Origin: Salinigranum rubrum
GTDB taxonomy: Archaea > Halobacteriota > Halobacteria > Halobacteriales > Haloferacaceae
NCBI RefSeq assembly: GCF_002906575.1
Contig: NZ_CP026309.1
Span: 3,844,001 to 3,908,000 of the forward strand
Direction of reading: 5' to 3'
Length of the DNA: 64,000 bases
This document shows, in pieces, positions 33,181 through 37,896 of the stretch (within the stretch, counting starts at the first letter, position 1; every line of letters starts with the position of its first letter). The position numbers and the translations under genes were made by a program. Below the pieces are notes generated by a model. It was not told the DNA's origin. It ran no database searches and saw nothing but the letters and a program-made list of their open reading frames with translations.

Positions 33181-33221
33181 CCTCGACCGCCTCTCGTCCC
33201 CCTCGACACGGTCGAGACCCC

Positions 33222-33335
33222 CACACTGAACACCGGGACCCACACTGAACACCGGGACCCACACTGAACACCGGGACCCACACTGAACACCGGGACCCAC
33301 ACTGAACACCGGGACCCACACTGAACACCGAGACC
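33222..33335. repeat. Six tandem copies of a 19-bp unit
   Basis: Unit CACACTGAACACCGGGACC begins at 33222, 33241, 33260, 33279, 33298 and 33317. The first five copies are identical and the sixth has one change (GGG to GAG). There are no spacers, so this is not a CRISPR array. The unit is not a multiple of three, and no gene with a supported start crosses it. It lies upstream of the PPOX-like gene at 33387. Possible roles are protein-binding array or slippage-prone satellite. Confidence 0.9.
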
Positions 33336-35419: not shown

Positions 35420-36283
35420 CTACTCCTCGCGGAGGTCGGTGTACGTGTTCCGGACGGTCACGGGCGTGACGTCGGCGACCGCGGCGGCCTCCGCCTGCGT
35501 CACGTCGTCCCCGCGGTCGCGCGCGGCCGTGTACAGACAGGCCGCAGCGACGCCGCTGGGGTTGCGACCCGAATCGAGCCCGCGATTGCGGCACGACGCG
35601 GCGTACTCGCGGGCGCGGCGTTCGGTCGCCTGATCGACCCCGAGCGACGTCGCGTACCGCGGGATGTACTCGGCCGGGTCGATCGGTCCGGTCGGCAGGC
35701 CGAGTTCGCGATTCAGCGCGTCGTACGCCGCGCGCAACTCGTCGCGTTCTGCCCGTGCCTCGGCGACGATTTCCTCGACCGTCCGAGAGACGCGCTGGGT
35801 CCGGCAGGCCGCATAGACGCACGCCGCCGCGAACCCTTCGAGCGACCGCCCGCGGACGATGTCTTCGCCCTGCGCCGAACGGAAGAGCGTCGACGACATC
35901 TCGCGGATGTGCGTCGGGAGCGAGAGCCGCGACGTCAGTCGACGGATCTCGGTGAAGACGTACACCTGGTTTCGCTCGCGCTTCGTCGATATCTGCGCCC
36001 GGTTGTGCTGGACGCGCATCCGCGCGAGTCGACGCCGCTTGCGTCCCTTGACGCGCGTCGACCGCCCGATTTCGGTCGAGAGGCCGCGGTCGTGCCGCGA
36101 GCGCGTCAACGGTGCGCCGGTCCGCTCGCGCGATGGACCGTCCGCGAACGACCGCCACTCCGGCCCGTGATCGATGTGGTCCGCGGCCACGACCAGCCCA
36201 CACTCCGCACAGACCGTCTCGGTCGCGTCCGTGTTCAGTCGTCCGTCGCACTCGGGGCAGCCCGCCTGGTTTCTCGTGCTCAT
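35420..36283 (-). CDS. tfb: Transcription initiation factor IIB (TFB), divergent short form
   Basis: 287-residue archaeal TFB. The zinc ribbon uses C9, C12, C25 and C28. The B-finger region [29 protein letters not shown] is present. Two cyclin repeats follow, with [13 protein letters not shown] and [15 protein letters not shown] as their hallmark helices. The linker after GLSTEIGRS is shorter and more basic than in standard TFBs ([14 protein letters not shown]), and the protein stops soon after the last helix ([11 protein letters not shown]), about 30 residues short of usual. Haloarchaea carry several TFBs that control gene subsets; this one is probably a specialised paralogue. Confidence 0.93.
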
Positions 36284-36316
36284 ATTCGAATATCGGGGGC
36301 GATCGAATATTTAAAC
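36282..36316 (-). promoter_or_regulatory. tfb promoter: TATA box and AT palindrome
   Basis: Minus-strand TTTAAATA (36309-36316) lies 26-33 bases before the ATG at 36283, which fits a leaderless message. The start codon region overlaps a perfect 12-base palindrome ATATTCGAATAT (36282-36293). TCGAATAT recurs at 36303-36310 next to the TATA. Auto-regulation or a gene-specific repressor is plausible. Confidence 0.5.
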
Positions 36317-36358: not shown

Positions 36359-36379
36359 ACGTACCGGTGACCGGTACGT
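36359..36379. promoter_or_regulatory. 21-bp near-perfect palindrome between tfb and the downstream gene
   Basis: ACGTACCGGT (36359-36368), a central G, ACCGGTACGT (36370-36379): ten-base arms match perfectly. It lies midway in the 158-base divergent spacer, 63 bases before the plus-strand start at 36442 and 76 bases before the tfb start. Size and symmetry fit a dimeric DNA-binding protein. Confidence 0.6.
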
Positions 36380-36441
36380 ACCCTCCAGATTTGAGTATCG
36401 AATACGAGAATTTAATACTGGTGCCGAGAGAGAAGGCTCAC

Positions 36442-36957
36442 ATGACGTTGTCGGACATCGCGGCCGGCATCGAGGTCACGACGAAACAGCGCGAGCGCGG
36501 CGTGCCGACCGTCGACGGGACGGAGACGGACCTCGACGACCGACTCGCGACGTACGCGGACGCCCTTCCCTGCACGCCGGAGGCGGCGGCGACGGTCCTC
36601 GAACGGTACGCGAGCGGAACGAGCGTCGGTGACCTCGCCCGCGCGGCGGGCGTCGCCCCGATGACGGCTGCGAAGACGCTCCATCTCTGTGGCGAGGTGG
36701 GAATATCGCCGCTCGGCCCGGTCGGGCGAGAGGTCGTGCGCGACTGGCTCGCGGGCGACCTTACACGCGCGGACGCGGTGACTCTCACCGGCGCGACACC
36801 GACGGAGTTCGCCCTCACCGCGTACGTCGAGGCACACGACCCCGTCCCCGGACTCGTCGAGGCGGCCGAGGCGGCGCTCTCTCCTGTGACGAACGCGAGC
36901 GTCACGAAACGCGAGACGCTCGCCGAGACGATGACTGACGCCGCCGACCTCGTCTGA
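36442..36957 (+). CDS. HTH-like uncharacterised protein
   Basis: 171 residues starting MTLSDIAAGIEVTTKQRERG. GTSVGDLARAAGVAPMTAAKTLHL (about residues 62-85) reads like a helix-turn-helix in which the second helix begins APMTAAK. Further helices follow. Divergent from tfb, sharing the palindrome-bearing spacer, so it may regulate itself or tfb (inference). The ATG at 36442 lies 26-31 bases after ATTTAATA, a good TATA spacing; the longer open frame from 36367 would start within that promoter. Confidence 0.65.
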   Translation: MTLSDIAAGIEVTTKQRERGVPTVDGTETDLDDRLATYADALPCTPEAAATVLERYASGTSVGDLARAAGVAPMTAAKTLHLCGEVGISPLGPVGREVVRDWLAGDLTRADAVTLTGATPTEFALTAYVEAHDPVPGLVEAAEAALSPVTNASVTKRETLAETMTDAADLV

Positions 36958-37020: not shown

Positions 37021-37755
37021 TTACCGCCGCACTCGCTCCGTGACCCCGCTGAAGAGGCCGCCCGAGCCGCCGACGCCGGTCACGTCGCGGTCGAGGAGGC
37101 GAGAGACGAGCGAGGCGACCGCCCGTCCGTACCGCTCGTCCGAAAGCGCGCCGGGGAGCGGCCGCTCCGTCGACGGGACGAGGATGTCAGCCGCGTTCCG
37201 TTCGTCGCTCCCTTCGACGACCGCGACAGTGTCGACCGTCGCGCCGACGTCGGCGACTCGCTCGCGGAGTCGGTTCGTCGCGTCGGCGCCGCGGTCACCA
37301 CCGGGCGAGACGAGACAGACGCGCTCGCAGGCGGTCGTCGCCGCGACGGCCTGGTTCGCCGCGAGGGGAGGCACGTCGACGAGCACGTGATCGGCAGCCG
37401 CCACCGCCTCCTCGATTCGGCGCTCGAACGCCTGTGCGGCCTCGACGCGCTTCGCGCGGGCGAGTCGCTCGAACGGCGCGTCGACGGGACAGCAGGCGAC
37501 CTCACCGGGTGCATCCACGTCCAGTTCGACCAGTCCGACGTCCAAGGGGCCGTCCGTCCGATCGGTCACCAGCGTCGTGAGGTCGGGGTCGAGCCGTCCC
37601 GAGAGGTAGTCGCCGAGCCCCTGCGTCGCGTAGGCCGCGTCGAGAACGATCACGTCCGCGCCGTCGGCCGCGAGCACGACGGCGGCTTCGAGGGTCGTCC
37701 GGGTCGTCCCTGCGCCGCCGGTCGCGCCGACGAACGCGGCAGTCGCGTAGGTCAT
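37021..37755 (-). CDS. ParA/MinD-like ATPase with atypical Walker A
   Basis: 244 residues of SIMIBI-class fold. The P-loop reads GATGGAGTTRTT (residues 10-21), where classical ParA/MinD have KGGxGKTT. Both the signature lysine and the Walker lysine are replaced by Thr, so nucleotide binding is in doubt. VIVLDAAYATQGLGDYL is the switch-like segment, and VLVDVPPLAANQAV the Walker B-like strand. The ATG at 37755 starts exactly at the fold. No ParB or segregation partner is nearby. Confidence 0.75.
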   Translation of the reverse strand: MTYATAAFVGATGGAGTTRTTLEAAVVLAADGADVIVLDAAYATQGLGDYLSGRLDPDLTTLVTDRTDGPLDVGLVELDVDAPGEVACCPVDAPFERLARAKRVEAAQAFERRIEEAVAAADHVLVDVPPLAANQAVAATTACERVCLVSPGGDRGADATNRLRERVADVGATVDTVAVVEGSDERNAADILVPSTERPLPGALSDERYGRAVASLVSRLLDRDVTGVGGSGGLFSGVTERVRR

Positions 37756-37896
37756 ACCGGCGGTGTCGTGGCCGTGGTAAAAAGCGCTCCCTCGCGACTC
37801 TCGGCGTTGATATCGGCTCGCGCTCGTGAGCATCTCCCGGACGGGGCGACGCCCTGATACCGGTTCGGCGTGACTCACTCATCAGAGACCGGACCG

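Follow-up and report, generated by a model that had tools for sequence, protein, structure and literature searches.

Haloarchaea carry many TFBs that serve overlapping sets of genes, and we know of no switch for most of them. Archaeal activators such as GvpE use a palindromic site upstream of the BRE and TATA box. Haloarchaeal TFBs have been divided into four families, TfbA, B/D/F, C/G and E, and each of five haloarchaea has just one TFB of the TfbA family (PMC2121645, excerpt). Deletion of tfbA in Halobacterium NRC-1 resulted in heat-sensitive growth and changed the expression of 482 genes (PMC2121645, excerpt). Proper tfbA expression under oxidative stress depends on RosR (PMC3443676, excerpt), and the action of RosR on tfbB is one known case of TFB control (PMC4287449, excerpt). 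The excerpted texts of PMC2121645 and PMC4230888 describe neither an operator nor a partner of TfbA. In Sulfolobus, the activating paralogue TFB3 has a special role and is unable to replace the canonical TFB (PMC7289017, excerpt).

We analysed a 64,000-nt stretch of Salinigranum rubrum (contig NZ_CP026309.1, positions 3,844,001 to 3,908,000), hereafter the window. It contains a tfb gene of an already known class, a divergent neighbour of the Pfam family DUF7858 and, between them, a palindrome (Table 1). In the open-licence literature, we found no description of such an operator, of its fixed spacing or of a link between DUF7858 and a TFB, and the word DUF7858 occurred in no paper of the literature searched. 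The locus offers a concrete candidate switch for an order-wide TFB class, namely DUF7858 together with a 21-bp site of defined sequence and constant placement, for which natural losses of DUF7858 and the palindrome serve as controls.

Table 1. Features of the tfb-DUF7858 locus, numbered from the first nucleotide of the window
Feature	Position	Strand	Basis
tfb gene, 287 aa, ATG start, probable TfbA class	35420..36283	-	ORF, Pfam, orthologues, tree
TATA box of tfb, TTTAAATA, 32 nt before the ATG	36308..36315	-	sequence; palindrome spacing same in relatives
21-bp palindrome ACGTACCGGT-G-ACCGGTACGT (whole, ACGTACCGGTGACCGGTACGT), proposed operator, centre 36369	36359..36379	.	sequence and relatives
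Probable TATA box of DUF7858, TTTAATA, 31 nt before the ATG	36411..36417	+	read from sequence
DUF7858 gene, 171 aa from the conserved ATG, proposed regulator	36442..36957	+	Pfam, orthologues, structure model
MinD/ParA-like gene (by reading), convergent with DUF7858 and close to the pair in many relatives	37021..37878	-	sequence

The tfb product matches the TFIIB zinc ribbon (PF08271, 47.9 bits, cut-off 29) and two TFIIB repeats (PF00382, 124.6 bits, cut-off 23.6). Both the B-reader, with the motif HDRGLSTEI, and the B-linker, a basic helix that follows it, were found, so the zinc ribbon, B-finger and cyclin repeats named in the preliminary description are all recognisable. The four ribbon cysteines are invariant across the 29 orthologues of alignment A1, which comprises 29 of 30 loci (L032 was dropped for an in-frame stop). 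The product is a complete TFB carrying all the parts of a working one, and because the ribbon, the B-reader and both repeats are retained it should act as a true TFB. A special role, such as the paralogue TFB3 plays in Sulfolobus (PMC7289017, excerpt), may also fall to this TFB paralogue; unlike TFB3, it retains the zinc ribbon, B-reader and both repeats. AlphaFold2 confidence is low at residues 35–78, the B-reader region. The matches in the same-genus genome G001 and in Salinigranum salinum (L051) have the same coordinates, at 83% identity.

The segment after the B-finger had been described as shorter and basic, and it is. Only 15 residues separate HDRGLSTEI from the RxR of the B-linker helix, compared with 19–21 (4–6 more) in the 11 paralogues of the same genome; two plasmid-borne TFBs of Halobacterium NRC-1 have 20 and 21. 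The short segment is a feature of the clade defined below, with 14–17 residues in 15 of its 19 members, 23 in two and a length that could not be measured in the remaining two. The basic sequence GRKR is invariant in the 29 A1 orthologues and missing from some distant ones (L157, L162 and L168). As the B-linker enters the polymerase and steadies the template strand (PMC7289017, excerpt), a shortened segment could alter TFB function. The last helix had been called truncated; the protein does stop a few residues before most of its paralogues, but a C-terminal helix is predicted by AlphaFold2 at residues 274–285, and the VTxR of the recognition helix is retained.

The host genome (4.97 Mb, 98% complete) yielded 26 TFIIB-repeat matches, which by our manual grouping represent 12 TFBs with two repeats and two partial matches; the window's TFB is therefore not the only one in its genome, and it does not group with the housekeeping TFB. 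In a tree of 52 TFBs, it forms one clade with 18 orthologues (19 rows, support 98/98). Beside it stands a clade that includes the 307-kb TFB of pNRC200; the pNRC200 TFB at 282 kb and a large multi-copy clade lie apart. From gene order, we take the 307-kb TFB to be probably TfbE and the 282-kb TFB to be probably TfbC; the remaining TFBs of the tree are provisionally assigned to B/D/F by elimination. The clade of the probable TfbE shares RTGAPLT and HDRGLST with the window's TFB, whereas the 307-kb TFB has a linker segment of 20 residues rather than 15.

Orthologues (E <= 1e-112) are present in 350 of the 392 genomes of the order, 335 of which carry one copy by manual reading of the rows. This occurrence excludes a local or recent variant, and the gene is not a local divergent copy. 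We identify the clade, by elimination, as probably the TfbA class (Halobacterium NRC-1 TfbA, VNG2184G), since it is separate from the other clades and since both are of a single-member type (PMC2121645, excerpt) and widespread, tfbA having been found in 74 of 80 isolates (PMC4230888, excerpt). Among 13 genomes of the probable genus Halobacterium, eight score above the orthologue threshold; a partial tfb occurs in G197, none is listed for G102, and G138, G174 and G202 are not positive. The gene thus encodes an old, widespread and mostly single-copy haloarchaeal type of TFB and not the housekeeping TFB. It may serve a gene set of its own, as the preliminary description proposed.

The divergent neighbour matches PF25257 (DUF7858) with 266.4 bits against a cut-off of 27. 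Its mechanically called ORF starts at a GTG at 36367, upstream of the conserved ATG used here. DUF7858 adjoins tfb in 26 of 30 loci, and in named haloarchaeal genomes (the best 80 of 286) it lies within 5 kb of tfb in 75 of 80 loci, six of the 75 not being directly adjacent. The family was detected in 233 of the 392 genomes of the order and also in the laboratory species Haloferax volcanii, which served as a control genome. When 294 genomes of the phylum were scanned, the 35 that proved positive all belonged to this same order. By comparison of lists, the tfb threshold is passed by 226 of the 233 DUF7858-positive genomes and by 124 of the 159 genomes lacking DUF7858. Among the other seven positives, three have weak DUF7858 matches (G187, G255 and G396), G197, G283 and G347 have partial tfb matches beside DUF7858 and a palindrome, and in the seventh, G332, no tfb was found.

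DUF7858 is predicted to be a helix-turn-helix-like protein of a family without a studied function. Its model is all-helical (mean pLDDT 78.4), and its matches among solved structures are mostly DNA-binding helix-turn-helix domains, at weak scores (VIA Z about 5; best Foldseek E 0.27). Pfam helix-turn-helix matches all fall below their cut-offs, and a search by sequence found no solved relative. An alignment of 18 of the 26 adjacent DUF7858 genes (A2) was prepared. Cys44 is present in 97 of 98 members, a count that covers 98 of 101 hits, three having been dropped by length, and that includes seven rows identical to others.

The intergenic region holds one strong palindrome, in keeping with the palindrome-rich locus of the preliminary description, and it is perfect except for the odd central base. 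Its centre lies 86 bp from the tfb ATG and 73 bp from the DUF7858 ATG. Because the TATA box of tfb is so close to the ATG (Table 1), the tfb mRNA is probably leaderless. In the 101 relatives' loci where the distance could be measured (10 more had no TATA box by the pattern used), the palindrome centre is 54 bp upstream of the tfb TATA box in 85, 53 bp in nine and 55 bp in seven. The sequence around the palindrome varies, while the palindrome and its distance from the TATA box are conserved.

On the other side, distances from the centre to the DUF7858 ATG (93 loci) cluster near 63, 74, 85, 97 and 106 bp. The resultant length of these distances peaks at periods of 10.5–11.5 bp (0.77–0.79) and is 0.70–0.73 at 10 and 12 bp, values that carry no significance estimate. 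The centre lies 28–78 bp upstream of the DUF7858 TATA box, most commonly 42–45 or 52–55 bp, the latter range accounting for 28 of the 93 loci. The palindrome therefore keeps a fixed distance from tfb and may be in helical phase with DUF7858.

We then scored a palindrome as present when a sequence with at most 3 mismatches to TACCGGTNACCGGTA occurred within 330 bp upstream of tfb. By this rule, 111 of the 113 loci in DUF7858-positive genomes carry it, or 105 of 107 distinct ones, since six loci repeat genomes reached by two tools. In loci from DUF7858-negative genomes, it was present in 2 of 47, and in coding control windows in 0 of 160. The 330-bp window supersedes a count from a fixed start (91 of 113 positive loci), which was low because many members have longer N-termini. 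With an ATG-based start, the core with 0–3 mismatches was found upstream of tfb in 100 of 110 relatives, 80 of which are the best 80 of 286.

Positive loci were sampled by similarity to the window's TFB and negative loci were picked from lists. Of 35 DUF7858-negative genomes, the 20 with an orthologue were counted; the other 15 lack one by score, and ten paralogue loci from them were kept out. From another set of 31 genomes, G137, without a locus, was left out. A second HMM gave no match at E <= 1 for 39 of the 47 negatives and matches at E 0.025–0.58 for eight. Among these negatives, G047, G049, G074 and G076 are less than 80% complete, and the completeness of G060–G064 is not stated. Fisher's test gives p = 8e-35, a value that overstates the association because the loci are related and were not randomly drawn. 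On the tfb tree, the DUF7858-negative label requires 6 changes, 4 of them forced by supported branches, and the palindrome-negative label requires 10, of which 7 are forced.

The exceptions are few. Two positive loci have more distant sites (L077 with 5 mismatches and L105 with 4), and two negative genomes, G239 (3 mismatches) and G302 (2), keep sites without DUF7858. The latter sites are less symmetric than those of positives with equal numbers of mismatches, and we read them as decaying. Two genomes counted as positive have DUF7858 in two pieces: G011, whose palindrome has 3 mismatches, and G023, in which one piece has a stop and the palindrome has 2 mismatches. Both states occur within one genus, G324 having DUF7858 and the palindrome and G012 neither. 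In G039, G012 and G060–G064, tfb is kept and both the palindrome and DUF7858 are gone, so the palindrome does not follow tfb alone.

Where DUF7858 has moved, the site stays with tfb. At six loci with a displaced DUF7858, the palindrome remains at tfb, away from the start of DUF7858. In G044, DUF7858 is 334 kb away, the palindrome is at tfb and no site lies within 1.5 kb of DUF7858. In G097, where DUF7858 is 1.8 Mb from tfb by contig coordinates, the sole exact site is at tfb.

The window's genome has one place at 0–1 mismatches and nine further places at 2 mismatches, compared to 3 for the control pattern. The exact palindrome occurs in 87 of 392 genomes, as a single site in 84 of them, and 85 of the 87 are DUF7858-positive by manual reading of the lists; a reversed control pattern has an exact match in 1 of 392. 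We fetched 11 exact-site regions, chosen partly because they seemed off-target (the set does not extend to G188 or to the additional sites in G056 and G100). Six are at tfb, one is an orphan and four are near neither gene: those of G140, G181 and G289, the last DUF7858-negative, and the second site of G144. A genome-wide palindrome regulon is not supported by these counts.

Among the genomes checked, the palindrome occurs almost only where DUF7858 is present, which suggests that DUF7858 is the switch for that TFB. From orthology, gene order, the palindrome and its fixed spacing, the co-occurrence and the persistence of the site at tfb, all directly observed, we infer binding, a direction of control and a signal. 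We consider it likely that DUF7858 binds the palindromic operator and controls the class of TFB encoded beside it, activation being the likelier mode. The DUF7858 product would bind the palindrome, most likely as a dimer via its helix-turn-helix, about five helical turns upstream of the tfb TATA box. Once bound, it would set the level of a single TFB, probably by activating tfb, and would thereby set the genes which that TFB serves. Judged by the position of the site, upstream of both core promoters and at a fixed distance from one, activation seems more likely than blocking.

The palindrome thus appears to matter more than the preliminary description assumed, although as a means of regulating tfb itself and not of regulation by its product. 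GvpE-type activators likewise have a palindromic site upstream of the core promoter; DUF7858 differs in its Pfam family, in having a TFB gene as the proposed target and in the location of its site, which is farther upstream. We give about even weight to the more specific proposal that DUF7858 is a dedicated, essentially single-target regulator of one alternative TFB across haloarchaea, possibly thiol- or redox-responsive via Cys44. If so, the TFB and DUF7858 would be the archaeal equivalent of a sigma factor and a switch dedicated to it.

The evidence for binding would apply equally if DUF7858, as part of an autorepressor pair, repressed both tfb and itself until a signal relieved the repression. 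Autoregulated pairs of divergent regulator and target genes are common, and the near-invariant Cys44 could serve as the sensor. However, known archaeal repressors usually block the core promoter, whereas this site overlaps neither a TATA box nor a start, its centre being 53–55 bp upstream of the tfb TATA box and 28–78 bp upstream of that of DUF7858. Nor does the palindrome stay with a displaced DUF7858 in any of the seven cases checked. We regard repression of the pair as possible but doubtful.

The co-occurrence is in itself an association, and the palindrome might instead be recognised by another regulator, or by the TFB itself, with DUF7858 co-kept for other reasons, for example as a TFB modulator. 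The palindromes of G023 and G011, which persist despite a broken-looking DUF7858, would fit such an arrangement. It is made unlikely by the genomes that keep tfb and have lost palindrome and DUF7858 together (G039, G012 and G060–G064), and by the identity of the gene at the site, which is mostly DUF7858 and predicted to be helix-turn-helix-like. It is very improbable that the gene is an ordinary TFB paralogue whose gene order and intergenic likeness were kept by descent without function. The haloarchaeal TFB families are indeed known and old (PMC2121645 and PMC4230888, excerpts), but what is conserved here is a palindrome that keeps its distance from the TATA box in varying surroundings, and it is mostly lost together with DUF7858.

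Several minor observations were made alongside. At two of the sites away from tfb and DUF7858 (L239 1539 and L240 1478, in G140 and G181), the same inner palindrome has other flanks, AGCAATACCGGTAACCGGTATTGCA. The orphaned palindrome is in G332 (L248), where no tfb was found and a TnpB-like gene, by reading, lies just downstream; it looks as if a transposon replaced tfb. Two further TFBs of the window's own genome, on contig C1 of G000, are unusual: that at 933 kb (L001, C/G clade) has lost the zinc-ribbon cysteines and kept the B-reader and both repeats, and that at 2120 kb (L003) is an open frame without a readable N-terminal zinc ribbon, perhaps owing to a frameshift. A link of tfb to the downstream tgtA was set aside, as tgtA is beside tfb only here among 110 loci and about 4 kb away in L108. 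For the product of the gene convergent with DUF7858, neither Pfam nor NCBIfam gave a family match at E <= 0.001. The P-loop region of this protein, GATGGAGTTRTT, lacks the usual lysine. Elsewhere in the window, positions 33220–33335 hold a 19-bp unit repeated in tandem (6.1 copies, 98% matches) between an HtpX-like and an F420-dependent PPOX-like gene, both named from matches below cut-off.
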